Positions 3,051-57,140 of a stretch of DNA of 57,692 nt are shown piece after piece. The position numbers and the translations under genes were made by a program. The first letter of the stretch is position 1. Each line of letters opens with the position of its first letter. This stretch comes from Sphingomonadales bacterium (GTDB lineage: Bacteria; Pseudomonadota; Alphaproteobacteria; Sphingomonadales; Sphingomonadaceae), in contig JAGWPW010000051.1 of assembly GCA_028870315.1 (NCBI GenBank), positions 1 through 57,692 on the forward strand, read 5' to 3'. The notes under the pieces are model-generated. The model did not search any database. It worked only from the letters and a program-made list of their open reading frames with translations, and was not told the origin of the DNA.

Positions 3051-3102
3051 TGCCAGTCGCATGAGGCGACCGGGCTTTTCGCCCGCCCCTTCCCATCCGA
3101 CA

Positions 3103-3116
3103 TTGGGAATTGCCAA
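3103..3116. promoter_or_regulatory. 14-bp near-palindrome, putative operator (box 2)
   Basis: TTGGGAATTGCCAA matches box 1 at 926-939 except for one base, and the match extends to 18 of 19 bases (3099-3117 versus 922-940). It lies 108 bp before the start of the beta-propeller gene and just after the kinase stop. It marks that gene as a likely separate transcript in the same regulon (inference). Confidence 0.55.
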
Positions 3117-3223
3117 CCTTTGCCCATCACGCTTGCCGAGCCGGGGCGAACCCGTCAGGCTCGCGCAGCAAGGGCTTCGGGCGCGACCCCGCAAATCACC
3201 CAGCCCGCTCCAGGGAGAAGCGC

Positions 3224-4252
3224 ATGACCGTCCGCCGCCTGCTTCGCGCGTTCTGCATCGGCATTGCCGCGCTCGCCCCGGCCCACGCGTTCGCATCGGA
3301 CGGCGGCTATCGCCAGGTGGCGAGCATTGCGCTGGGGCCACCCGAGCGCTGGGACTATGTCGTCGCCGATCCGGGAACCGGGCGGATCTATGTCTCGCAT
3401 GGTGACCGGGTCGCGGTGCTCGACGCGCGATCGGGCCACATCGTCGGACAGGTCGAGGGCATGCCCGGCGGCACCCATGGCATCGCGATCTCGGCGGCAA
3501 CCGGGCAGGGCTTCACCGATGACGGCGAAAAAGGCGAAGCGGTCGCCTTCGACCTCAAGACCCTCAAGGTCGGGCACCGCATCCCCGTCGCCGCCGATGC
3601 CGATGGCATGGTCACCGATCCGCGCACCGGACGGGTGTTCGTCGTCGATGGCGATCCCGGCAGGCTCACCGTCATCGACCCGCGCAGCGACAGCGTGGTC
3701 GCGACCATCGACGTCGGCGCGAAGATGGAATATCTCGCCGCCGACCGGGCGGGGCATGTCTATGTCGCGGGCGTGGAAAAAAGCGATGTCATCGTCATCG
3801 ATGCCGCGAGCGCGCAGATCACCGCGCATTGGCAGACCCCCGATTGCCAGCGCCCGCACGGCGTGGCGCTCGACGCGGCGAACGGGCGGCTGTTCATGGG
3901 CTGCCTCAACGCGAAGATGATGGTGCTCGACACCGGCTCGGGCCGCATCGTCGCCGAATTGCCGATCGGCCATGGCAATGATTCGGTCGCCTGGGATCCG
4001 CTGCGCCGCCGCGTGTTCAGCCCCAACGGCCGCGACGGGACGATCAGCGTCTTCCGGCAGGTGACGCCCGATCGCTATGCCGCGCTGCCGACGATCACCA
4101 CCATGCCCGGCACGCGCACCATGGCGGTCGATCCGCGCAGCGGCAAGCTGTTCGCGGTCGCCGCCGATTTCGACCCCGCCCCGTCCAGCGGCGGACGCCC
4201 CGCCATCCGGCCGGGCAGCGTGCGCGTGCTGGTGTTCGCGCCGGCAAGCTGA
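3224..4252 (+). CDS. Secreted YncE/YVTN-like beta-propeller protein
   Basis: 342 aa. I chose the ATG at 3224 because it follows GGGAGAAG and begins a signal peptide (MTVRRLLRAFCIGIAALAP, cleavage near AHA-FAS). The mature part has repeated blades of the type GRIYVSHGDRVAVLD, GRVFVVDG.PGRLTVID, GHVYVAGVEKSDVIVID and GRLFMGCLNAKMMVLD, as in YncE-type periplasmic seven-bladed propellers (family knowledge). A pair of cysteines in DCQRP and MGCLN could form a disulfide. The function of such proteins is generally unclear. It follows the two-component genes and carries box 2 upstream, so it is probably regulated with them. Confidence 0.8.
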   Translation: MTVRRLLRAFCIGIAALAPAHAFASDGGYRQVASIALGPPERWDYVVADPGTGRIYVSHGDRVAVLDARSGHIVGQVEGMPGGTHGIAISAATGQGFTDDGEKGEAVAFDLKTLKVGHRIPVAADADGMVTDPRTGRVFVVDGDPGRLTVIDPRSDSVVATIDVGAKMEYLAADRAGHVYVAGVEKSDVIVIDAASAQITAHWQTPDCQRPHGVALDAANGRLFMGCLNAKMMVLDTGSGRIVAELPIGHGNDSVAWDPLRRRVFSPNGRDGTISVFRQVTPDRYAALPTITTMPGTRTMAVDPRSGKLFAVAADFDPAPSSGGRPAIRPGSVRVLVFAPAS

Positions 4253-4733: not shown

Positions 4734-5351
4734 ATGGGCGTATCGGCAGATGACTTGCACGCAGCGCTCGATGCGCTGGCGGCGCGCGAGCCGGGGATCG
4801 CCCGTGCGCTGGCGCTGGCCGGCTATCCCGAGCCGCGGCTGCGCGCGCGCGGGCATGCGACGCTGCTGCGCACGATCGTCGGCCAGCAGGTGAGTGTCGC
4901 TGCCGCCGCCTCGGTGTGGGGCCGGCTGGAGACGCTGCTCGGCCCCGGGCTTGCGCCCGAGGCGCTGCTCGCCGCCGATGCCGAGGCGCTGCGTGGCTGC
5001 GGGCTCTCGCGCCAGAAGCAGGCCTATGCGCGCAGCCTGTGCGAACTGGTCGCAGCGGGCACGCTCGACCTCCACACCCTGCCCGAAGCCGATGAGGAGG
5101 CGATCGCGGCGCTGACCCGGATCAAGGGAATCGGCCGCTGGTCGGCGGAAATCTATCTGCTGTTCGCCGAGGGCCGCCCCGACATCTGGCCCGCGGGCGA
5201 TCTTGCCGTGCAGGCAGGCATCCAGAAGATCCTCGGCCTCGATGCCCGGCCCGACGAGAAGCAGACCCGCGCGCGCGCCGAGGGCTGGCGTCCCTATCGC
5301 GGCGCCGCGGCGATCTTTACCTGGCACTGCTACAACAACGCCGCCCTATAG
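4734..5351 (+). CDS. DNA-3-methyladenine glycosylase, AlkA/HhH-GPD family
   Basis: 205 aa. The protein removes alkylated bases from DNA in base-excision repair (family knowledge). It shows the conserved TIVGQQVS segment of the HhH-GPD fold near residue 47, a helix-hairpin-helix around LTRIKGIGRWSAEIYLL, and the catalytic aspartate at about 156 in WPAGDLAVQ. It lacks the extra N-terminal domain of E. coli AlkA and so resembles the shorter single-domain forms. I chose the ATG at 4734 (GGGAGAG about 10-15 bases upstream); an in-frame start at 4707 is possible. Confidence 0.9.
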   Translation: MGVSADDLHAALDALAAREPGIARALALAGYPEPRLRARGHATLLRTIVGQQVSVAAAASVWGRLETLLGPGLAPEALLAADAEALRGCGLSRQKQAYARSLCELVAAGTLDLHTLPEADEEAIAALTRIKGIGRWSAEIYLLFAEGRPDIWPAGDLAVQAGIQKILGLDARPDEKQTRARAEGWRPYRGAAAIFTWHCYNNAAL

Positions 5352-5394
5352 GTCATCTTCACCGCTGCAACGAACGCAGGCGAGGAGACAGACG

Positions 5395-6567
5395 ATGGAT
5401 GCGGTGGCCGGCTGGGATGTTTTCATCGACAATCTGCGCGACCTGCCGCAGCGGATGCTGGCAAAGCTGCCGGCGGCGATGCAGGCCGATCCGCAGATCC
5501 GCCAGGAAATCGCGCGGCTGGCGCTCGAATCGCTCGCCTCGAACCTCTTGGAGGCGATCGGCGGCGATGGCGATGCGCCGGTGTTCCTGCCCTCGATCGG
5601 CCAGATCCTCAACGTCGGCCAGCCCAATGCCGATACCATCTATCGCTCGGCGAAGCTGACGCCGGGGGCGAGCTATCGGCTGACCGGGCGGCGCGGCAGC
5701 CTGAAGCTGAGCGTGCTCGCGCAGGTCGTCCCGCAGGGTGAGCCCGGTGCCGGCGCGCGCGCGCATCTCGACCTCGCCGATCTGGCGACCGATGCCGAGG
5801 GCCGCTTCGAGGTGCTGGTCAGCGCCGAACGCCCCGCGGGCCATCACGGCGACTGGTGGCAGCTCAATCCCGGAGCAACCCGGCTGATGCTGCGGCTGGT
5901 GAGTTCAAACTGGGCGGGCGAGACTTCGCCGACGATCGCCATCGAGCGGCTCGACCGGCCCACCGCGCGGCCGCGGCCTTGCGCCGAAGCGCTCGAAGCG
6001 CGGCTGCGCGCGCTGCCCCGCGCCATCGATTATCTCGCGCTGATGTTCGTCGATCATGTCGAACAGCTTCGCGCCGAGGGCTATGTCAACCGGCTCAAGG
6101 TATTCGACGTGCCGTTCGGCGCCTTGCAGGGCCAGTTCTATTACGAGGGCGCCTATGATCTCGCCGACGACGAGGCGCTGATCGTCGATTCGCCGGTGCC
6201 GGGCAAATGCGACTATCGCTCGCTCATCCTGACGAACGAGATCTACGAGACCACCGACTGGATCAACAACCACGCCAGCCTGAACGACGCGCAGGCCGCG
6301 CCCGACAGCGACGGGCGGCTGCGCATCGTCATTTCGGCGCGCGACCCGGGGGTGAAGAACTGGCTCGACACCGCCGGCCATGCAAAGGGCGCGGTGCAGG
6401 GCCGCTGGACCGGCTGCGACAGCCATCCGATGCCGACGGTCACCAAGGTGAAGCTGAGCGAACTGGCCGCGCATCTTCCCGCCGATGTCGCCCGGGTGAC
6501 GCCGGCCGAACGCGAGGCGATCCTGCGCGCCCGCCGCACCGCCTGGCTCGAACGGCCGCAGTGGTAG
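5395..6567 (+). CDS. DUF1214-like protein of unknown function
   Basis: 390 aa, start preceded by GAGGAGAC, no signal peptide. The C-terminal third has features that recall DUF1214 proteins: YRSLILTNEIYETTDW, HASLNDAQAAPDSDGRLRI, a VISARDPGVKNWLDTAGH segment, and RWTGC. The N-terminal third contains FLPSIGQILNVGQPNADTIY, a segment that often precedes this domain. Such proteins are widespread in sphingomonads and related bacteria, but no reaction is established to my knowledge. It begins 43 bp after the glycosylase and could share its transcript. The family assignment is by eye and moderate. Confidence 0.7.
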   Translation: MDAVAGWDVFIDNLRDLPQRMLAKLPAAMQADPQIRQEIARLALESLASNLLEAIGGDGDAPVFLPSIGQILNVGQPNADTIYRSAKLTPGASYRLTGRRGSLKLSVLAQVVPQGEPGAGARAHLDLADLATDAEGRFEVLVSAERPAGHHGDWWQLNPGATRLMLRLVSSNWAGETSPTIAIERLDRPTARPRPCAEALEARLRALPRAIDYLALMFVDHVEQLRAEGYVNRLKVFDVPFGALQGQFYYEGAYDLADDEALIVDSPVPGKCDYRSLILTNEIYETTDWINNHASLNDAQAAPDSDGRLRIVISARDPGVKNWLDTAGHAKGAVQGRWTGCDSHPMPTVTKVKLSELAAHLPADVARVTPAEREAILRARRTAWLERPQW

Positions 6568-12663: not shown

Positions 12664-13275
12664 TCAGTGCCCCGAAAACAGCAGCCAGCCCAGCAGCGCG
12701 AACACCGCGAGCGCGACCAGCACCCAGATGAGGTTGCGCCGGACCGGGACGCCATCGGGGGTGCCATGGCCGGTGACCGCCTGTTCGAGCCGCGCCTCGC
12801 CCTCGGCGACGCGCTCGCCGAGTTGGACGATCGATTCGCCGACGCTGGCGATCGGCGCGCCGGTGACCAGCGCGACCGCATCGCCCGCAGCGGCGAGCGC
12901 GGCGCTGCCGCGCGCGCCGATCGCCGGATGCGCGGGCTCGGTATCGATGGCATCGCCCGCGGGCGCGCGCAGCCGGTCGAGCCTTCCGAGTTCCTCGGCA
13001 AGGCAATAGCAGACCGTCAGCCGGCAGGGCGCAATTCCCGCCAGCCGCGCCGCGACGCGGGCGATCGCCGCGTCGAGCGCCGGATCGGGCAGCGCGAGTT
13101 GCAAGGCGTCCTTGCAATAGAGTTCGCGCAGCCAGGCATCTTCGGCGCTGGAGGCCAGATCGACGCGCTCGTCGACGGGCGCGCTGGCCCCGCAGATCGC
13201 CGCGATCGCCGCGATTGCGCCTTCATCGGCGTCGGGAACGAGGCCTTTCAGCTGATTACGGCATTCGCTGTCCAT
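12664..13275 (-). CDS. Hypothetical protein with C-terminal membrane anchor
   Basis: 203 aa, start chosen at the ATG 13273-13275 behind GAGGGGAG. I do not recognise a family. It begins MDSECRNQLKGLVPDADEG, is rich in alanine and acidic residues, and has cysteines at LYCKDA, IAPCRLTVCYCLAEELG. The last 20 residues (NLIWVLVALAVFALLGWLLF) form one membrane helix with SGH after it, so the bulk is probably cytoplasmic with a tail anchor. A helical heptad-like stretch (ESIVQLGERVAEGEARLEQAV) precedes the anchor. It is divergent from the TSUP permease gene across about 120 bp. Confidence 0.7.
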   Translation of the reverse strand: MDSECRNQLKGLVPDADEGAIAAIAAICGASAPVDERVDLASSAEDAWLRELYCKDALQLALPDPALDAAIARVAARLAGIAPCRLTVCYCLAEELGRLDRLRAPAGDAIDTEPAHPAIGARGSAALAAAGDAVALVTGAPIASVGESIVQLGERVAEGEARLEQAVTGHGTPDGVPVRRNLIWVLVALAVFALLGWLLFSGH

Positions 13276-13396
13276 CGGCTCCCCTCGCGTCACTGCGACT
13301 GCAACCGCTATGCGGCGCGCCCGCCCGGCGCGCAAGCCGCTCTGCACGCTTGCCACCGCGCGCCCCGACCCGCTAGGCACCGCGATCCTAGCGCTC

Positions 13397-14152
13397 ATGA
13401 CCAGCCATCCCCTCGCCTTTCTCGTCCTGTTCGTCGCCGCGCTGTGGGCCGGCGCGCAGAACCAGCTCGCCGGCGGCGGCTCGTTCCTGACGCTGCCGGC
13501 GCTGATGCTGACCGGCATGGACGCGCGCGTTGCCAACATCACCTCGACGGTGGCGCTGTTTCCCGGCCAGATCACCGGCGGCTGGATCGGACGCCGGCTG
13601 GCGGGAGGGACCGAGACGCTGTCGCTCACCGCGCTGACCATCATCAGCCTGATCGGCGGCGCGATCGGCGCGCTGCTGCTGCTGGCGACTCCTTCGGGCA
13701 TCTTCGCGCGGATGGTGCCCTGGCTGGTGCTGTTCGCCACCGGCGCTTTCGCCTGGGGGAGCTTCGGGCGCAAGCCCAAGCCGACGAGAGTTGCGCTCGG
13801 CGCCGTGCCCGCGGGTGCGATCCAGTTCGCCATCGCCGTCTATGGCGGCTATTTCGGCGGCGGCATCGGCTTCCTCATGGTCACCGCGCTGACGCTGAGC
13901 CATGTCCCGGTCCGCGCCGCGTCCGCCACCAAGAACGTGCTGGCCGGGGTGATGAACGCGACCGCCGTCCTCGTCTTCCTGTTCTCGGGCGAGGTGCGCT
14001 GGCTCGGCGCGGCGATCGCCTGCATCGGCGCGCTTGCCGGCAGCATCATCGGCGCGCGGCTGCTGCGCCATATCAACGAAAGGGTGCTGCGCGTGGTCAT
14101 CGTCGTCATCGGCGCGGCGCTTACCCTCGGGCTGTTCCTGCGCCAGCCCTGA
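13397..14152 (+). CDS. TSUP-family (TauE/SafE) membrane permease
   Basis: 251 aa with about eight membrane helices. Two family-typical motifs are present, NQLAGGGSFLTLPALMLTGM in the first half and YGGYFGGGIGFLMVTALTL in the second, reflecting the duplicated TSUP fold. Members export sulfite, sulfoacetate and related anions, but the substrate here is unknown. I chose the ATG at 13397 because the membrane region begins directly after it. The stop overlaps the greB start (TGATG), so the two are co-transcribed, perhaps without functional link. Confidence 0.9.
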   Translation: MTSHPLAFLVLFVAALWAGAQNQLAGGGSFLTLPALMLTGMDARVANITSTVALFPGQITGGWIGRRLAGGTETLSLTALTIISLIGGAIGALLLLATPSGIFARMVPWLVLFATGAFAWGSFGRKPKPTRVALGAVPAGAIQFAIAVYGGYFGGGIGFLMVTALTLSHVPVRAASATKNVLAGVMNATAVLVFLFSGEVRWLGAAIACIGALAGSIIGARLLRHINERVLRVVIVVIGAALTLGLFLRQP

Positions 14153-14634
14153 TGGACGGCCCGCCGATCACCCCCGAAGGGCTGGCCGCGCTGCGCGCCC
14201 GCTATGATCACCTGCTTGGCACCGAGCGCCCGGCGATCGTCGAGATCGTCAGCTGGGCGGCGGGCAACGGCGATCGCAGCGAGAACGGCGATTACCTCTA
14301 TGGCCGCAAGCGCATGCGCGAGATCGACCGCGAGCTCGGCTTTCTCGCGCGGCGGATGAAGGCGGTGCGCCCGATCGACCCGGCGCGACAGGCCGACCGT
14401 GGCCGCGTCTGGTTCGGCGCCACGGTCACCATCGCCGACGAGGACGACAACCGCCGCACCCTGACGCTGGTCGGCGACGACGAGCAGGACGCCGGCGCCG
14501 GCCGCATCGGCTGGAGCGCGCCGATCGCGCGCGCCTTGCGCGGCGCGGCCGCGGGCGACGTGCGGCGGGTGACGCTGCCGGTTGGAGAAAAGGAATGGGA
14601 GGTTCTGGAGATCGAATATCCGGAAGAAAGGTAG
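14152..14634 (+). CDS. greB: Transcription elongation factor GreB
   Basis: 160 aa. It rescues backtracked RNA polymerase by stimulating transcript cleavage (family knowledge). The N-terminal coiled coil runs from about [18 protein letters not shown] to [10 protein letters not shown] and carries the acidic tip region [17 protein letters not shown], whose D and E residues act in cleavage. The C-terminal FKBP-like domain includes [17 protein letters not shown] and [17 protein letters not shown]. The start ATG overlaps the permease stop. Confidence 0.92.
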
Positions 14635-14636
14635 AA

Positions 14637-15122
14637 ATGCGAGGAACCTGGCCGCTCACCCTTCTGCTTGTCGCCGCCCCCGCCGCCGCGCGGGACAGCC
14701 TCGGCATGTTCGACCAATGGGGAGCGTTCCGCGATCCGCAAGTGCCGCGCTGCTATGCGATCGCCCGCGGCGAAAGCAGCCATGGCGAGCCCGCGGGCGT
14801 CGCTTACGCCGATGTCGCGAGCTGGCCGAAGCGCGGGCTGCGCGGCGAGGTGCATTTCCACCTGTCGCGCAAGGTGGTGTCGGGCACGGCGATCGAACTT
14901 GCGATCGGCAACCAGCGTTTCGCGCTGTTCAGCGACGGCAGCAATGCCTGGCTTGCCGATCCGCGGATGAATGCGGCGGTGGTCGCGGCGATGCGCTTCA
15001 ACCCGGCGATGGCGGTGCTGGCGCGCGACAGCAGCGGGCGCCATTTCACCGACAGCTGGCCGCTGGCGGGCGCTGCCTCGGCCATGGATTCGGCGGCGAT
15101 CGGCTGCGCGGAGTTGCGCTAG
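14637..15122 (+). CDS. Exported protein resembling invasion-associated locus B (IalB) family
   Basis: 161 aa. It begins two bases after greB, with GGAAGAAAGG as ribosome site, and has a signal peptide ([18 protein letters not shown] then RDS). The mature part reads [49 protein letters not shown] and ends with a second cysteine in IGCAELR. The pairing of W-x-F near a cysteine with the I-N-Q-R-F-x-L-F block and the terminal cysteine resembles IalB-like periplasmic proteins. The assignment is by eye. No function can be claimed; it probably shares the greB transcript. Confidence 0.7.
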
Positions 15123-22717: not shown

Positions 22718-23584
22718 TCAAAGCCCCGGAACCGACGGGCAGGGCCCGAGATCGGCAAGCACCTGCGCGTAATCGGCCGCCGCCTGCGCGCGGTCCTCGG
22801 CGGTGCCCGAGACATTGACCCCGGCGGGCAACTGGCGCGGCAAGCCGCAGGCCAGCCGATATGTGGCGAGCGTGTCGGGGGCGGGGGGACGGCCGCTCGC
22901 ATCGACCACTTCGGAAAATGACACGCTCCAGCCAGCCGGCTGGCCGGGGCGATGCGTCACGGTGATCGCGGCGGGGCCATGGCTGGCGGTGACGAGGAAG
23001 AACTGCGCCTGGCCCTCGCCGCTCAGCGTGCCGGGCACATAGATCGCCTCGCTCACCCCGGTCACGCGCGGCGGCGCGTCATCGGCGGCAAGCGCCGCCA
23101 GCACCGCGCCGACGCGCTGTTCGAGCGGCGCCGCGGTTTCGAGCCCGGCGGTCGGGGCGACAAGTTGCAGCATCGCCGGATTGCCGGCGACCGGACGGGC
23201 GAACAGCAGCAGGTGCTGCTTTGCCAGCGGCGGCAGCCGGCCCTTCACCCCCTGCGGCACATCGACGAGGAAGGAAAGCAGCGGCGCCGCGGGCAGCGCG
23301 CCCTTCAGCGCCGCGAGCGGCCGGGCGACGACATAGGCGCGCATCATGCCCGCGCCCACGTCGCGCGCGCGCGCCGGATCGAGCGCGATTGCCTTCCTGA
23401 CCTCGACGGTCAGCACCAGCGGCGCGGCCGAAACGAGCGCGACGAGCGTCCCGAAGCGCGGCGATGAATCCGCGACCGCCGCCGCCGGCGCATCCCCGGC
23501 GGCGCCGGCGCGAATCGGCGGCGCGGCCAGCGCGAGCGCTGCCGCCAGCATCGGCAGCGCGCGATTGGCAAAGCGGCGGCGCAT
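22718..23584 (-). CDS. Hypothetical exported protein
   Basis: 288 aa. I chose the ATG at 23582-23584 because it follows GGGAG and opens a signal peptide (RRRFANRALPMLAAALALAA). No family recognised. The mature protein has a hydrophobic beta-rich core (LVLTVEVRKAIAL, LLSFLVDVPQGVKGRLPPL, KQHLLLFARPV) and two cysteines near the C-terminus (LACGLPRQL, LGPCPSVPGL) that could form a disulfide. The order of those segments suggests one globular periplasmic domain. It converges on the ligase-like gene and is divergent from tonB, so the neighbours give no role. Confidence 0.75.
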   Translation of the reverse strand: MRRRFANRALPMLAAALALAAPPIRAGAAGDAPAAAVADSSPRFGTLVALVSAAPLVLTVEVRKAIALDPARARDVGAGMMRAYVVARPLAALKGALPAAPLLSFLVDVPQGVKGRLPPLAKQHLLLFARPVAGNPAMLQLVAPTAGLETAAPLEQRVGAVLAALAADDAPPRVTGVSEAIYVPGTLSGEGQAQFFLVTASHGPAAITVTHRPGQPAGWSVSFSEVVDASGRPPAPDTLATYRLACGLPRQLPAGVNVSGTAEDRAQAAADYAQVLADLGPCPSVPGL

Positions 23585-23825
23585 CCTCGCATCTCCCTTG
23601 CGCAGGGTTGGAAACCCCCGCTTTGCGTCGGAATCCGGCCCGACACAACCGAATCGACAGCTAACCACGATCAGCAGGCGGTTTTGGCGTTGCGCGGGGG
23701 CAATGTCGCCGCTAAAGCACCGTCAACGCGGGCTGAAAAGCAACGGCTCCACCGGGCCCTCCGGGTTATTGCCCCGCTGGCCCAGAAATCCGGCAGGGTG
23801 GAAAATAAACAGGGCATTCTGGGGA

Positions 23826-25432: not shown

Positions 25433-25539
25433 CGGCAGCGCCGCCGGAAAAGGGCGGGATCGGAACGGGCCGACCGCGCGGCATGCAGCGGGGTCGCCCC
25501 TCCGTCCTCAAGGACAATGCACAAGGATAGGATGAGACA

Positions 25540-26076
25540 ATGGCGATTTCGGTAGGCGGCGCGGGGGTCCAGGAACGGCCCATGTCGGATATCAACACGA
25601 CGCCGCTCGTCGACGTGATGCTGGTGCTGCTGATCATCTTCCTGATCGCGGTGCCGGTGGCGATCCAGCAGATCCAGAAGCTTCGCATCCCGATCATGGT
25701 GTCGGTCGAATCGAAGAACAAGGTGGAGAACCTGCTGCTGACGGTCGCGACTACCGATGCCGCGGGGCGCAGCGCCGGCGATCCGGGCTATGAAGGCTCG
25801 TCGCGCGGCGGCGATTGCCGGGTCTATTTCAACAATATCACCCCGGTCACCTCGGATGAGCTGCGCGATCTCGCGTTCAAGCGGCTCGATGCCATCGTCA
25901 AGCGTGCCGGCGGCCCGGAAGCGCTGAAGGACGATCCGACCAAGATCCCGCAAGTCCATATCCGTGCCGACGTCAACGCCCCGTGGCGCTGCGTCGCGGG
26001 TGCGATCTACAACGTCCAGCTCTCGGGCTATCCGACCGTCGGCTTCATCTCGACCCCGGTCGATCCGAACGCCTGA
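25540..26076 (+). CDS. exbD: ExbD/TolR biopolymer transport protein, first copy
   Basis: 178 aa. One N-terminal membrane helix with the proton-binding aspartate in DINTTPLVDVMLVLLIIFLI, then a periplasmic domain (VENLLLTVATTDAAG ... VHIRADVNAPWRCVAGAIYN). The DINTTPLVDV motif is standard for ExbD. Two cysteines occur in the periplasmic part (RGGDCRVYF, PWRCVAG), possibly a disulfide, absent from the second copy. It is followed 26 bp later by a second ExbD gene. Confidence 0.93.
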   Translation: MAISVGGAGVQERPMSDINTTPLVDVMLVLLIIFLIAVPVAIQQIQKLRIPIMVSVESKNKVENLLLTVATTDAAGRSAGDPGYEGSSRGGDCRVYFNNITPVTSDELRDLAFKRLDAIVKRAGGPEALKDDPTKIPQVHIRADVNAPWRCVAGAIYNVQLSGYPTVGFISTPVDPNA

Positions 26077-26102
26077 CCCGCAGATTTCAGGAGTACCAAG
26101 CC

Positions 26103-26561
26103 ATGGCAATGTCAGGCGGCAAAGACGACGGCTCGCCGATGATGGAAATGAACACGACGCCGCTCATCGACGTCATGCTCGTGCTGCTCATCATGTTCAT
26201 CATCACCATCCCCGTCGCCACCCATTCGGTGAACATCGACCTGCCCTCGCCGCTGCCGCCGACGACCCCGCCGCCGCTCAACCCGGTCAAGAACAAGGTC
26301 GTGCTGACCGCCGACGGCAGGATTCTGTTCAACGCAACCGAGGAAAACCAGAACCAGCTGGTTTATACGCTGAAGCAGACGATGGCGATGCCGGTCGAGC
26401 CTGAACTCCAGTTCCAGCCCGATCCGCAGGCCCCCTACGATCTCGCCGCGCATGTGCTCAACATCATCAAGCAATCGGGCGTGACCAAGTTCGGCTTCGT
26501 CGGCAACGAACAATACGTCAATTTCGGCAAGGCGCCCAACGCGCCCAAGGCCACCGGCTGA
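26103..26561 (+). CDS. ExbD/TolR biopolymer transport protein, second copy
   Basis: 152 aa, ATG at 26103 behind AGGAGT. Same architecture as the first copy, with MEMNTTPLIDVMLVLLIMF and the conserved aspartate, then a shorter periplasmic domain (NKVVLTADGRILFNATEENQ). Tandem ExbD genes are a recurrent arrangement in TonB-receptor-rich bacteria, and both may join one ExbB ring (family knowledge). It is the last gene of the operon and is closed by a strong terminator. Confidence 0.92.
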   Translation: MAMSGGKDDGSPMMEMNTTPLIDVMLVLLIMFIITIPVATHSVNIDLPSPLPPTTPPPLNPVKNKVVLTADGRILFNATEENQNQLVYTLKQTMAMPVEPELQFQPDPQAPYDLAAHVLNIIKQSGVTKFGFVGNEQYVNFGKAPNAPKATG

Positions 26562-29412: not shown

Positions 29413-30264
29413 TCAGCCGACCGCGAGATTGTCGATCAGCCGCGTGGCGCCGATGCGCGCGGCGACCAGCAGCCGCGCCGGCTCGGCGCCAAGGCGCGCC
29501 AGCGGCACCAGCGTCCCGGCCGTGCGGAATTCGGCGTAATCGACCGCGGAAAAGCCGGCGGCGCGCAATTCTTCGCGCAGCGCCGCCAGCACCGGCGCGG
29601 CAGCATCCCCGGCACGCAGGCGCGCCGCCGCCGTGGCGAGCGCGCGCGGCAACCGCGCGGCGATGCGGCGCTCATCGGCATCGAGGTAGCGATTGCGCGA
29701 CGAGCGGGCGAGCCCGTCCGCCTCGCGTTCGGTGGCGATGCCGATGATCGCCCCGGCATGCGGCCGGGTGAGGTCGAGATCGCGCGCCATGCGGCGGATG
29801 ACCGCAAGCTGCTGCCAGTCCTTTTCGCCGAACACCGCAAGGTCGGGCTCGACCTGGTTGAACAGCTTGAGCACCACCGTCGCGACGCCATCGAAATGGC
29901 CCGGCCGGGCCGCGCCGCACAGCCCTTCACTGACCCCGCTCACGGCGACATGGCTTGCAAAGCCCTCGGGATACATCGTCTCGACCGCGGGCGCCCACAA
30001 CACGCCCACGCCCTCGCTTTCGAGCATCGCCGAATCAGCGGCAAGCTGGCGCGGATAGGCGGCGAGATCCTCGCCCGCGCCGAACTGCATCGGGTTGACG
30101 AAGATCGACACCACGACATGCGCCGCGCGCGCGCGCGCGGCACGCACCAGCGCAAGATGGCCTTCGTGCAGCGCGCCCATCGTCGGCACCAGCGCCAGCG
30201 GTCCGTCGCGACGCAGCGCCGCGGTCGCATGCCGCAGTGGATCAAGCCGATTGATGGTTTGCAC
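29413..30264 (-). CDS. panC: Pantoate-beta-alanine ligase
   Basis: 283 aa. It joins pantoate and beta-alanine with ATP in coenzyme A synthesis. Nucleotidyl-transferase motifs PTMGALHEGHLALVR (HxGH), FVNPMQFGAGEDLAAYPR, VFGEKDWQQL and SSRNRYLD are all present; the family norm in the third is EKDYQQL. The start is a GTG at 30262-30264, preceded by AAGGGTCG; an ATG much further upstream would overlap the mipZ region. It is divergent from mipZ across about 100 bp. Confidence 0.95.
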   Translation of the reverse strand: MQTINRLDPLRHATAALRRDGPLALVPTMGALHEGHLALVRAARARAAHVVVSIFVNPMQFGAGEDLAAYPRQLAADSAMLESEGVGVLWAPAVETMYPEGFASHVAVSGVSEGLCGAARPGHFDGVATVVLKLFNQVEPDLAVFGEKDWQQLAVIRRMARDLDLTRPHAGAIIGIATEREADGLARSSRNRYLDADERRIAARLPRALATAAARLRAGDAAAPVLAALREELRAAGFSAVDYAEFRTAGTLVPLARLGAEPARLLVAARIGATRLIDNLAVG

Positions 30265-30368
30265 GTGCTGCGACCCTTGGATAAGGCTGGCGACGGGCCG
30301 CGGGCTTGGCCGTGGTCCGGTTTTGCCATGCACGCCTCCGGCCACGCCTGACAAGAGTATCGCGCGCA

Positions 30369-31214
30369 ATGTCCCTTCCCGGCCCGCATCGAATCGTCTT
30401 CGCCAATGAAAAGGGCGGCACCGGCAAATCGACCACCGCAGTCCATGTCGCGATCGCGCTTGCCTATCAGGGCGCGCGCGTCGCCGCGATCGACCTCGAT
30501 CCGCGCCAGCGCACGCTGCATCGCTATCTCGAAAACCGGGCGGAGACGATCGGCCGCCGCGCGATCGCCGTGCCGCAGGCCGATTTCGCGGTGTTCACCG
30601 GCGACAGCATCGCCGCGCTCGACGCACTGGGCGAGGATGTCGGCGCAGACCATGATTTCCTCATCTACGACACCCCCGGCCGCGACGATGATTTTGCCCG
30701 CCATGTCGCCACCCAGGCCGACACGCTGGTGACCCCGCTCAACGACAGCTTCGTCGATTTCGATCTCATCGGCCAGGTCGATGCCGAAACTTTCAAGGTC
30801 CGGCGCCTGTCGTTCTATGCCGAGCTGATCTGGGAAACCCGCAAGAAGCGCGCGATGACGACGATCAGGGATGCGCGGCGCGAGATGGACTGGGTGGTGG
30901 TCCGCAACCGCACCCAGCATATCGAGGCACGCAACATGCGCCGCATCGACAGTGCCCTCACCGAACTGTCGCGCCGCGTCGGGTTCCGCATCGCCAACGG
31001 GCTTTCGGAACGGGTGATATATCGCGAGCTGTTTCCCTCCGGACTGACCCTGCTCGACAAGGGACATCTCGGCGAACTCGGCACCAGCCACCTCGTCGCG
31101 CGGCAGGAGATGCGCGCACTGGTCGCCGGGCTGAAGCTGCAGATGCCCGCGGGCGCCGCCGCCGCACAGCGCGAGATGGCGTTCGCAGCCGATGGGGCGA
31201 GCGTGCAGGCATGA
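30369..31214 (+). CDS. mipZ: Division-plane positioning ATPase MipZ
   Basis: 281 aa. A ParA-type ATPase that forms a gradient from ParB-bound origins and keeps FtsZ from assembling near the poles in alphaproteobacteria (family knowledge). Deviant Walker A KGGTGKS at 15-21, with switch regions AAIDLDPRQRTLHRYLENR and LIYDTPGRDDDFARH, and the MipZ-type NRTQHIEARNMRRID. The ATG at 30369 directly precedes the conserved core. Its stop overlaps the start of the J-domain gene (ATGA). Confidence 0.95.
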   Translation: MSLPGPHRIVFANEKGGTGKSTTAVHVAIALAYQGARVAAIDLDPRQRTLHRYLENRAETIGRRAIAVPQADFAVFTGDSIAALDALGEDVGADHDFLIYDTPGRDDDFARHVATQADTLVTPLNDSFVDFDLIGQVDAETFKVRRLSFYAELIWETRKKRAMTTIRDARREMDWVVVRNRTQHIEARNMRRIDSALTELSRRVGFRIANGLSERVIYRELFPSGLTLLDKGHLGELGTSHLVARQEMRALVAGLKLQMPAGAAAAQREMAFAADGASVQA

Positions 31215-31492
31215 TCCGTCTGCTGCTGCTGCTCGCGGTGGTCGCGATGGGCGCCAAACTCGTCTTCGGCCGCTGGCCGTGGGAGATGATGGCGCTGCCC
31301 CCTTCCGGAGAGCGGCTGGCGCAGGCGCGGGCGCTGCTCGGGGTCGGCGCGGATGCGAGCCGCGGCGACATCATCGAGGCGCACAAGCGGCTGCTGATCC
31401 AGGTCCATCCCGATCGCGGTGGCAGCGAGGCGCTGGTCCACGAGGCGAATGACGCGCGCGACCTGCTGCTCGCGCGGATCGGCACGCGCTGA
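31211..31492 (+). CDS. Membrane-anchored short J-domain protein
   Basis: 93 aa. An N-terminal hydrophobic helix (MIRLLLLLAVVAMGAKLVFG) precedes a compact J domain with the HPD motif at 66-68 in LLIQVHPDRGGSEALV, which stimulates Hsp70 ATPase (family knowledge). There is no Gly/Phe or zinc region, so it is a DnaJ-like type III co-chaperone, comparable in size to the Pam18/DjlA-type membrane J proteins. It overlaps mipZ upstream and, at its stop codon, the phosphomannomutase reading frame. Confidence 0.88.
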   Translation: MIRLLLLLAVVAMGAKLVFGRWPWEMMALPPSGERLAQARALLGVGADASRGDIIEAHKRLLIQVHPDRGGSEALVHEANDARDLLLARIGTR

Positions 31493-32880
31493 GCGCGGGG
31501 ATCGATCGCTCGATCCTGCGCGAATACGACATTCGCGGGATCGTCGGGCGCACGCTCAATGCGGCGGATGCGACGGGAATTGGCCGGGCTTTCGCGCAGG
31601 TGGTGCTGGGCTCGGGCGGCCATAGCGTCGCGGTGGGGCGTGACGGCAGGCTGAGTTCGCCGATGCTGGAGGCGGCGCTGGTCGAGGGGTTGCGCGATGC
31701 CGGCTGCGACGTGCTGCGGATCGGGGCGGGGCCGACCCCGATGCTCTATTTCGCCGAGCGTGCGATCGACGGTGTCGATGGCGGGATAGAGGTGACCGGC
31801 AGCCATAATCCACCCGATCACAATGGCTTCAAGCTTCAACTGCGCGGGCGGCCGTTCTTCGGACCCGACATCCTCGGGCTCGACGCGCTGGCGCGCAGCG
31901 CCCCTGTGGCTGCGGCGCGGCGCGGGCGCATCGAGACCACAGACGTGCTGCCCGCCTATGTCGAGGCGCTGCTCGGCGCGCTTCGCGGGCTCGATCCGGC
32001 GGCGCTTGCCGGACTGCGCATCGGCTGGGACGCAGGGCATGGCGCCGCGGGGCCGGTGATCGAGGCGCTGGTCGCACGGCTGCCCGGCGAGCACCACCTG
32101 TTATACACATCGATGGACGGGCGCTTTCCCGCCCATCACCCCGATCCCTCGGTGGCCGCCAATCTCGCCGATCTGCAACGGCTGGTTGGTGAAAAGCGGC
32201 TCGATTGCGGCTTTGCCTTCGACGGCGATGGCGATCGGCTGGGGGTGATCGATGGCGAGGGGCGTATCATCCGCAGCGACCTTTTGCTGCTGATCTATGC
32301 CGAGGATCTGTTGCAGCGCCATCCCGGCGCAAGCGTTATCGCCGATGTGAAGGCCTCGCAGGCGGTGTTCGACGGCCTCGCCGCGATGGGCGCACGGCCG
32401 CAGATGGCAAGGACCGGGCATAGCAACATCAAGGCGCGGATGCAGGAGAGCGGCGCGCTGCTCGGCGGCGAGATGACCGGGCACCTGTTTTTCGCCGAGG
32501 CCTGGTACGGCTTCGACGATGCGATCCATGCGGCGCTGCGGCTGATCGCCGCCAGCCTGCGGCTCGGCCGCCCGGTTGCCGGCCTGCACGATGGCCTGCC
32601 GCGCCCGGTCAACACCGACGAACTGCGGTTTGCCATCGCCGAGGATCGCAAGGCGGCGGCGATGGCCGCGGTCGCCCGCCGCCTTGCCGCGCGCGGGGCG
32701 AAGGCGATCACCCTCGACGGGCTGCGGGTGACGACCGCCGACGGCTGGTGGCTGCTGCGCACCTCCAACACCGAGGCGGCGCTGGTGGCGCGGGCCGAAG
32801 CGCGCGATGCGGCGGGGCTGGCGCGGGTGCTCGTCGAACTCTATGCGGAACTGGCGGTGGTGGGGATCACAAGGGCGTGA
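31489..32880 (+). CDS. Phosphomannomutase/phosphoglucomutase, probable CTG start
   Basis: 463 aa if begun at CTG 31489, which matches family length. It interconverts hexose 1- and 6-phosphates for sugar nucleotide and polysaccharide synthesis. The N-terminal REYDIRGIVG is at residues 12-21; the phosphoserine is S105 in TGSHNPPDHNG; the metal loop is DGDGDR; GGEMTGHLFF and the phosphate site RTSNTEAALVAR follow. The frame has no ATG, GTG or TTG between its upstream stop (31450) and the GTG at 31600, which would remove the conserved start. A CTG at 31489 overlaps the J-protein stop (CTGA), mimicking an ATGA coupling. ATC or ATT codons nearby are alternatives. Confidence 0.85.
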   Translation: MSAGIDRSILREYDIRGIVGRTLNAADATGIGRAFAQVVLGSGGHSVAVGRDGRLSSPMLEAALVEGLRDAGCDVLRIGAGPTPMLYFAERAIDGVDGGIEVTGSHNPPDHNGFKLQLRGRPFFGPDILGLDALARSAPVAAARRGRIETTDVLPAYVEALLGALRGLDPAALAGLRIGWDAGHGAAGPVIEALVARLPGEHHLLYTSMDGRFPAHHPDPSVAANLADLQRLVGEKRLDCGFAFDGDGDRLGVIDGEGRIIRSDLLLLIYAEDLLQRHPGASVIADVKASQAVFDGLAAMGARPQMARTGHSNIKARMQESGALLGGEMTGHLFFAEAWYGFDDAIHAALRLIAASLRLGRPVAGLHDGLPRPVNTDELRFAIAEDRKAAAMAAVARRLAARGAKAITLDGLRVTTADGWWLLRTSNTEAALVARAEARDAAGLARVLVELYAELAVVGITRA

Positions 32881-55652: not shown

Positions 55653-55739
55653 GCCCAGATGGCGGAATTGGTAGACGCACCAGCTTCAGGTGCTGGCGCT
55701 CGCAAGGGCGTGGAGGTTCGAGTCCTCTTCTGGGCACCA
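55653..55739 (+). tRNA. tRNA-Leu (anticodon CAG), CCA encoded
   Basis: Acceptor arms GCCCAGA (55653-55659) and TCTGGGC (55729-55735) pair perfectly, followed by A and the encoded CCA. The anticodon stem CCAGC / GCTGG encloses TTCAGGT, anticodon CAG (leucine, CUG). The variable arm is long, as in class II tRNAs, and GGTTCGAGTCC is the T-arm. The integrase gene starts 157 bp after it, so its 3' end is probably the island attachment site. Confidence 0.97.
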
Positions 55740-55749
55740 TTATTTCTTC

Positions 55750-55761
55750 CGGATGCATCCG
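55750..55761. repeat. 12-bp palindrome downstream of tRNA-Leu
   Basis: CGGATGCATCCG is a perfect inverted repeat 11 bp after the tRNA. It may be a recombinase or regulator site of the island edge; its role is not shown. Confidence 0.4.
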
Positions 55762-55766
55762 CAGAT

Positions 55767-55786
55767 GTCCGGAAAAGTCCGGAAAA
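55767..55786 (+). repeat. Tandem 10-bp repeat, putative integrase arm site
   Basis: Two perfect adjacent copies of GTCCGGAAAA. Their position between the tRNA attachment site and the integrase gene is where phage-type integrases bind arm sites. Confidence 0.5.
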
Positions 55787-55797
55787 TCAGGGGCTTT

Positions 55798-55872
55798 TGA
55801 CGGATCGGGCGTCCATTGGCATCCGGCCGAATTCGTTGAAATTGACGGTACATGACGGTATATCTGACGGTA
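55798..55872 (+). repeat. Four spaced TGACGG repeats upstream of integrase
   Basis: TGACGGTA occurs at 55843-55850, 55853-55860 and 55865-55872, with TGACGGAT at 55798-55805. The last three are 10 and 12 bp apart, near one helical turn, and end 23 bp before the integrase ATG. They could be arm sites or an autoregulatory operator. Confidence 0.5.
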
Positions 55873-55895
55873 TCGAAACCGACAGAGGTGGCGCC

Positions 55896-57140
55896 ATGCT
55901 GACCGATCTGGCCGTCCGAAAAGCCGCTCCGCGCGGCAAGCCCTACAAGCTCTCCGATGGGGGCGGATTGTACTTGCTGGTGACAGCGGCGGGTCAGCGA
56001 TACTGGCGGATGGATTATCGCTTCGCCGAAAAGCGGGCTACGGCAGCACTCGGGGTCTATCCGACCATCACCCTGGCCGAGGCGCGCGCCAAGCGGCTGG
56101 AGATCAAGAAGCAGATCGCCGAGGGCATCAATCCCGCCGCCAAGCGCAAGATCGACAAGATCACCGGACCGCTCGCCAGTGTGAACAGCTTTAAGGCAGT
56201 TTCGGAAGAATGGCTCGACAAGGCCCGGCGCGAAGGCCGTGCCGAAGTGACGCTGGGCAAGCTGAAATGGCTTCTCGAATTCGCCTACCCCATCATCGGA
56301 GACCGCAAGGTCGGCGAGATCAAGGCGCCCGAACTGCTGGCCGTGCTGCGCGCTGTTGAAAAGCGCGGTCATTACGAAACGGCCCGAAGGCTGCGCAGCA
56401 CCTGCGGACAGGTGTTCCGCTATGCCATCGCTACCGGCCGCGCCGACCGGGACGTGTCGGCAGACCTGCGCGGTGCACTGATCGTGCCCAAGGTGACGCA
56501 CCGGGCCGCGATCATCACGGCGAAGGAAGCGGGTGTTCTGCTGCGCGCTATCGACGCCTATTCAGGCTATCCGGTCACCCACGCAGCCCTGCGGCTTGCC
56601 CCCTATGTCTTCGTGCGTCCCGGTGAACTGCGGCAGGCCGAATGGAGCGAGTTCGACTTCGCCCGCAACATCTGGACCATCGCCGCCGACAAGACCAAGA
56701 TGCGCGTCGCGCACCGCGTGCCGCTGAGCCGTCAGGTGCTCGCCATCCTGGAAGAGCTACGCGAGATTACCGGCAACCGCCGCTACCTCTTCCCGGCCCA
56801 GGGCAAACACGACCGGCCCATGTGCGAAAACACGATCAATCTTGCGCTTCGGCGCATGGGTTTCGACGGGACCACGATGACCGCCCACGGCTTCCGCGCC
56901 ATGGCCAGCACGCTGCTGAACGAGCAAGGCCACTGGAACCCCGACGCGATCGAGCGCCAGCTTGGCCATGCCGAGACCGATGACGTCCGCCGCGCCTATG
57001 CACGGGGCGAGCACTGGGAAGAACGGATCAGGATGATGCAGAGCTGGGCAGACTATCTCGACCAGCTACGCTCCGGCGCAAAGGTCCTGCAAGGCAGCTT
57101 CCGCAAGCCGCCTGCCGCCGCGAGTGCGGTCCCTGGTTGA
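55896..57140 (+). CDS. P4-type tyrosine-recombinase integrase
   Basis: 414 aa. I chose the ATG at 55896 with GACAGAGG upstream; an open frame continues into the tRNA but codes for no known domain. Residues 1-85 are the arm-binding DUF4102-type domain (LTDLAVRKAAPRGKPYKLSD, GGLYLLVTAAGQRYWRMDYR). The catalytic residues are R241 (VRPGELRQ), H331-x2-R334 (HGFRAMAST), H358 (QLGHAET) and Y368. It would insert the mobile element into the tRNA-Leu 3' end. The tRNA-proximal position and direction are typical of island integrases (family knowledge). Confidence 0.95.
   Translation: MLTDLAVRKAAPRGKPYKLSDGGGLYLLVTAAGQRYWRMDYRFAEKRATAALGVYPTITLAEARAKRLEIKKQIAEGINPAAKRKIDKITGPLASVNSFKAVSEEWLDKARREGRAEVTLGKLKWLLEFAYPIIGDRKVGEIKAPELLAVLRAVEKRGHYETARRLRSTCGQVFRYAIATGRADRDVSADLRGALIVPKVTHRAAIITAKEAGVLLRAIDAYSGYPVTHAALRLAPYVFVRPGELRQAEWSEFDFARNIWTIAADKTKMRVAHRVPLSRQVLAILEELREITGNRRYLFPAQGKHDRPMCENTINLALRRMGFDGTTMTAHGFRAMASTLLNEQGHWNPDAIERQLGHAETDDVRRAYARGEHWEERIRMMQSWADYLDQLRSGAKVLQGSFRKPPAAASAVPG

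Follow-up and report, generated by a model that had tools for sequence, protein, structure and literature searches.

A probable CTG start codon in a four-base overlap with the upstream gene in a pgmG-type phosphohexomutase locus of a Sphingomonadales bacterium

The three-gene run and its phosphohexomutase

The DNA analyzed here, a stretch of 57,692 nucleotides that we call the window, is contig 8 of a 3.13 Mb draft assembly. It contains a closely spaced trio of genes for a ParA/MipZ-like ATPase, a short J-protein and a phosphohexomutase, whose coordinates are listed together with the features around the third start in Table 1. The TGA of the ATPase gene and the ATG of the J-protein gene overlap as ATGA at 31211-31214. 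In the initial annotation, the first gene was called mipZ and the second a J-protein gene. These names were looser than the evidence, as the best NCBIfam match of the former, which is better described as a ParA-like ATPase, and the Pfam DnaJ match of the latter both scored below their cut-offs.

Table 1. Coordinates of genes and start-region features in the window
Feature	Position	Strand	Remarks
ParA/MipZ-like ATPase gene	30369..31214	+	First in the trio; NCBIfam ParA_partition 75.6 bits, cut-off 180
Short J-protein gene	31211..31492	+	HPDRGG motif; stop TGA 31490-31492; Pfam DnaJ 23.0 bits, cut-off 27.8
Predicted start-region fold, 70 nt	31454..31523	+	-40.1 kcal/mol; CTG and TGA largely within a stem
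Proposed pgmG start codon CTG	31489..31491	+	10 codons upstream of REYDIRG
CTGA start/stop overlap, -4 spacing	31489..31492	+	CTG 31489-31491 over the J-protein TGA 31490-31492
pgmG-type phosphoglucomutase/phosphomannomutase gene	31489..32880	+	463 aa plus stop; NF046027 and four Pfam domains
Inverted repeat, 7-bp perfect, 4-nt loop	31499..31516	+	Just downstream of the CTG, within the coding sequence
GTG, first in-frame ATG/GTG/TTG	31600..31602	+	Downstream of REYDIRG; a start here drops 37 residues including REYDIRG

The third gene runs for 463 codons uninterrupted by a stop or frameshift. Translated from the CTG at 31489, its product scored 632 bits against the NCBIfam PgmG model NF046027 (curated cut-off 600), which was the lowest among the 13 genomes compared, the other 12 scoring 717 to 818 bits. 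All four Pfam domains (PF02878, PF02879, PF02880 and PF00408, domains I to IV) exceeded their cut-offs whether translation was taken from the CTG or from GTG 31600. Pfam alone is therefore compatible with a shortened protein, and this counts against the CTG. Nevertheless, a start at GTG 31600 was rejected, because this codon lies within the conserved first domain, downstream of the conserved REYDIRG, and the score from it (574.3 bits) falls below the PgmG cut-off. The solved PMM/PGM structure 2fkf and its relatives aligned over residues 6-450, which placed TGSHNP and DGDGDR and made the sugar and phosphate loops recognizable; we take these motifs and loops to be those of the PMM/PGM active site. 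REYDIRG, TGSHNP and DGDGDR are all present. Of 121 full-length loci, 118 have RASNTQ in the C-terminal phosphate loop and two have RASNTE, compared with RTSNTE in the window. As judged from its sequence, the product is a complete PgmG-type phosphoglucomutase/phosphomannomutase with that predicted activity. It resembles other PgmG members in its full-length match and its four domains and differs from them in having CTG rather than ATG, GTG or TTG as its start.

According to the initial annotation, the open frame contains no usual start codon ahead of REYDIRG, and a CTG overlaps the J-protein stop with the same geometry as the ATGA upstream. Both observations held. The frame is closed upstream by the TGA at 31450-31452; from 31453 onward, REYDIRG (whose CGC is at 31519) is preceded by 22 codons, none of which is ATG, GTG or TTG, and the coordinates of the overlap are right.

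Start codons in relatives

We then compared the start codons of 238 loci: 80 named loci from GTDB genomes, 157 loci from genomes of the genus to which the window belongs (that of the window among them), and a further match in the latter genome. Among 195 genus genomes, 175 gave a strong match, and 157 of these were used; the other 20 fell short of the threshold for a strong match, several of them with split or partial matches. A REYDIRG-like motif was present in 234 loci, and the four without it by the pattern used (L106, L111, L198 and L211) were dropped. Merging three duplicates that were identical around the start left 231 unique loci. For the 234-locus counts, the canonical codon nearest REYDIRG was taken as the start, and for the 231-locus, pairing and fold counts the one nearest position -10 (in codons from REYDIRG); the counts shift slightly between these two rules.

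By the first rule, the canonical start lay at -10 to -12 in 210 of the 234 loci, and the commonest position was -10 (174 loci: 159 ATG, 9 GTG and 6 TTG). Three loci, namely the window, L007 and L120, had no ATG, GTG or TTG within 20 codons, and all three carried CTG at the expected place. The 231 merged loci divided into 205 ATG, 13 GTG, 10 TTG and 3 CTG starts. The nearest relative found was L002 (the same sequence as L031) from a Sphingomonas palustris MAG (JAMFSI010000098.1), with 65% identity; no PgmG closer to that of the window was found in the 195 genus genomes. At the site of the window's CTG AGC, L002 has GTG AGC, and its start likewise overlaps the J-protein stop by four bases (GTGA versus CTGA).

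L007 and L120 belong to two separate genomes, of about 9 contigs for the former and 3 for the latter, and a 4,383-column alignment of their sequences showed 98.8% identity, with 21 mismatches and 4 gap openings. Both have CTG at -11, where their sister L017 carries ATG; L017, whose sequence equals that of L035 (Novosphingobium clariflavum), shares 96% identity with L007. Given the 21 mismatches between their sequences, L007 and L120 do not owe their CTG to a single common read error, and a CTG at the pgmG start appears to have evolved on at least two occasions. Such switches are rare, as CUG was reached from 2 of 61,358 ancestral AUG starts and 1 of 5,080 ancestral GUG starts (PMC5622118). The CTG at -11 in L007 and L120 sits 23 bases downstream of the J-protein stop; therefore, if this codon is used, the overlap is not strictly required. 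L007, L120 and also L017, which starts with ATG, have a second in-frame CTG at -20 (20 codons before REYDIRG), and this codon forms a CTGA overlap with the J-protein stop. Either the CTG at -11 or that at -20 may be the start in L007 and L120.

These data also bear on a read or consensus error, the main alternative in the initial annotation, by which position 31489 actually holds G (or A or T) and the gene has an ordinary start in an NTGA overlap. The GTG of the nearest relative, the 170 contigs of the draft and the lack of a second strain among the 195 genus genomes, where the nearest PgmG is only 65% identical, are in favor of such an error. However, it would need to strike exactly base 31489, and the same codon occurs at the pgmG start in two other assemblies. 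Since two near-identical genomes have CTG and their sister has ATG, a lone read error is the weaker reading, and we consider it unlikely. A Pfam scan of 35 ORFs of the window (34 of the 40 picked plus 29416-30594), of which 29 had a match at E 1e-8, showed no family whose match was divided between two frames. This indicates that gross assembly errors are few in the window, and it is more informative on indels than on single-base errors, on which it has little bearing.

It had also been proposed that ATG in close relatives would point to a mutation or a read error. The outcome was mixed: since the relatives carry ATG or GTG, the start probably underwent a base change either way, but L007 and L120 show that such a change to CTG occurs in well-assembled genomes. 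Initiation at the CTG itself gained support from its position, the GTGA of the nearest relative, the two further genomes with CTG and the complete frame. We conclude that CTG 31489 is probably the real start of pgmG, a weak and perhaps coupled start that is most simply derived from an NTG codon by one base change.

Overlap with the J-protein gene and local RNA structure

An upstream J-protein gene was recognizable at 192 of the 231 unique loci and not at the other 39. Among these 192, the -4 spacing was the commonest single value (37 loci: 33 ATGA, 2 GTGA, 1 TTGA and 1 CTGA). The two GTGA loci, L002 and L112, are the best and third-best matches to the window (itself excluded). Thus, the overlap is a recurring arrangement of the J-protein and pgmG genes rather than a chance of the window, yet one found in a minority of loci. 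The -4 spacing has also been reported as by far the commonest stop/start spacing motif (PMC12548453), and translational coupling has been validated for 14 gene pairs (PMC6728339).

The region around the pgmG start is predicted to fold strongly (Table 1). Its fold was the lowest of 229 starts, both by energy and by the z-score against simple shuffles, and five other starts in the window folded at -9.9 to -29.4 kcal/mol (with the ATPase start taken at 30370, the true one being 30369). Along the contig, 1.8% of 11,526 segments from both strands folded as low. Against dinucleotide shuffles, the z-score was -2.07, and 8 of 200 shuffles were as low, indicating that part of the stability is due to base composition. 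The start of L007 folded at -23.8 (rank 25 of 229), which is not extreme and weakens any rule that a CTG start needs an extreme fold. Pairing of the CTG start with the 16S tail was weak, at -4.1 kcal/mol compared with a median of -6.3 for 234 starts, and 76% of these starts pair equally well or better. In termination-reinitiation pairs, a Shine-Dalgarno motif inside the upstream gene is common but not universal. The combination of weak pairing, a weak codon and a strong predicted fold would argue against efficient fresh initiation and would fit ribosomes arriving from the J-protein gene. Based on the conserved NTGA overlap, the strong predicted fold and the weak Shine-Dalgarno pairing, it is plausible that coupling permits initiation at the CTG.

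Rate of evolution of PgmG

Next, the evolution of PgmG was compared with that of the ATPase encoded in the same run. Six of 46 chosen loci had no recognized ATPase gene, which left 40 loci for the trees, with the duplicates L038 and L121 kept. The terminal branch of the window was the longest of the 40 for PgmG (0.417, compared with 0.206 for its sister L002) and the seventh for the ATPase (0.125, compared with 0.094). At 129 nearly invariant PgmG columns, the window showed 8 departures, the most of 118 proteins and followed by 5 in the next; two of the 8 fall in the C-terminal phosphate loop. With L003 as the outgroup, changes on the window's lineage at codon positions 1, 2 and 3 numbered 58, 48 and 68 in PgmG and 4, 10 and 34 in the ATPase (p 1.4e-4), although GC3 differs between the two sisters (0.83 vs 0.73), which may affect the third-position counts. 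This contrast gave p values of 3e-5 to 6e-3 with five outgroups; the same contrast in L002 was not significant with five outgroups (p 0.14 to 0.47). Median pairwise dN/dS of PgmG was highest in the window (0.312; median 0.197) among 39 loci, L029 being left out as it had no valid pair, whereas the window's ATPase ranked 17th of 40. Relative-rate tests on PgmG alone gave p values of 2e-4 to 0.36 with seven outgroups, and a direct comparison of PgmG and ATPase protein rates was not significant (Fisher p 0.07 to 0.65, seven outgroups).

These results could also be read as start loss in progress, with very little PgmG made from a real CTG in a decaying gene. The long branch, the departures that reach the phosphate loop and the codon-position contrast, which the sister L002 does not show, would all suit decay, as would the three further phosphohexomutase domain I genes in this genome. 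However, spare copies alone are an insufficient explanation: among 12 relatives searched, four have four such genes, five have three and three have two. Moreover, the frame and the three motifs are intact, dN/dS between the window and L002 is 0.27/1.07, and the direct rate comparison and the GC3 difference temper the contrast with the ATPase. The changes are spread along the protein; on this ground, a compensated frameshift as the source of the divergence was rejected as well. Decay of the gene is therefore improbable in our view. Our reading is that constraint on PgmG may have eased while still being present, as a low-output gene might show.

Two further explanations dispense with the CTG at 31489. 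Initiation at another near-standard codon that is in frame upstream of REYDIRG (ATC 31501, ATC 31513 or CTG 31516, ATC being counted as a rare start listed in table 11) is very unlikely, as none of these lies at the -10 to -12 position of 210 of 234 relatives and none touches the J-protein stop. A -1 frameshift near the end of the J-protein gene, yielding a J-PgmG fusion that needs no start codon, is hardly credible and was rejected: PgmG does lie in the -1 frame of the J-protein gene and is open back to 31453, but no X XXY YYZ heptamer was seen by eye upstream of the TGA, and the same overlap occurs with its own start codon in 37 of 192 loci.

A putative coupled weak start

Taken together, the weak CTG start is probably real, with low output and eased constraint on its product, and we infer that it is served by ribosomes finishing the J-protein gene. 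By this mechanism, a GTG-like NTG start, as in the nearest relative, would have become CTG by one base change. Ribosomes finishing the J-protein gene would open the strong local fold, and the same ribosomes would restart at the CUG with initiator tRNA. The full-length PgmG would then begin with fMet, its output would be lower than from AUG, and this lower output would accompany the eased constraint on the protein.

CTG starts, which are rare and have probably been overlooked at times, are already established, as are NTGA overlaps and reinitiation. CTG (CUG in the mRNA) accounts for approximately 0.024% of annotated starts in model bacteria, and initiation at CUG has an output of 0.86% of that at AUG (both as cited in PMC11497404). 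In Caulobacter dnaA, a CUG binds ribosomes in vitro and is unused in vivo (PMC8443254). Both the low output and the dnaA case weigh against a CTG start in pgmG. The rep gene of RepFIB in F-type plasmids has a CTG start, which most GenBank records misannotate at a GTG 14 codons downstream, and its authors suspect more overlooked CTG starts (PMC11983097). The pgmG gene would share the CTG start with RepFIB rep. However, the CTG of rep is backed by N-terminal analysis and mutation in a working replicon with a good ribosome-binding site, as described in the same paper, while that of pgmG is a candidate from the sequence, with weak pairing and a four-base gene overlap. Compared with NTGA termination-reinitiation pairs, the window has the same -4 stop/start spacing and differs in that N is C. 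The main text of PMC12548453 does not contain "CUG", and that of PMC6728339 contains neither "CTGA" nor "CTG"; the accessible parts of PMC11445065 and PMC9955659 hold nothing on CTG as a start, and those of a mycobacterial study give no support for CTG starts (PMC4633059). No description of reinitiation at a natural CTGA was found in a limited search of the open literature.

The pgmG gene is a rare, well-placed example of a CTG start, and its interest lies mainly in the recurrence in one gene and setting. New in the present analysis are the most stable start fold of 229 and the longest PgmG branch of 40, which the ATPase does not share. It offers a clean candidate, a conserved enzyme with an anchored N-terminus in two separate lineages of the genus, both of which have a relative with a standard start, and it provides a natural experiment on a small scale into the extent to which translational coupling loosens start-codon choice. 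For annotation, a gene finder limited to the three usual starts would truncate the front end of pgmG; starting from GTG 31600, it would yield a protein without the first 37 residues, REYDIRG included, and below the PgmG model cut-off. A stop/start overlap together with a start-occluding fold might, more generally, leave the start of a coupled gene almost free to drift to CUG, which only ribosomes coming from the upstream gene would then read; hidden CTGA starts would be missed across genomes because annotation seldom seeks CTG. We put this forward as a doubtful possibility.

Other features of the window

Elsewhere in the window, long ORFs at 3065-4252, 5116-6567, 12664-13839, 13849-14655 and 22718-23722 had no Pfam match at E 1e-8 and have a coding-like base composition. 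Two ExbD/TolR-type genes lie in tandem at 25531-26561, downstream of TonB-like and ExbB-like genes. Near the contig end, a tRNA-Leu (cag) at 55653-55739 precedes a gene for a tyrosine integrase that carries an Arm-DNA-bind_3 domain, and this region (55653-57140) is probably the edge of a tRNA-integrated element.
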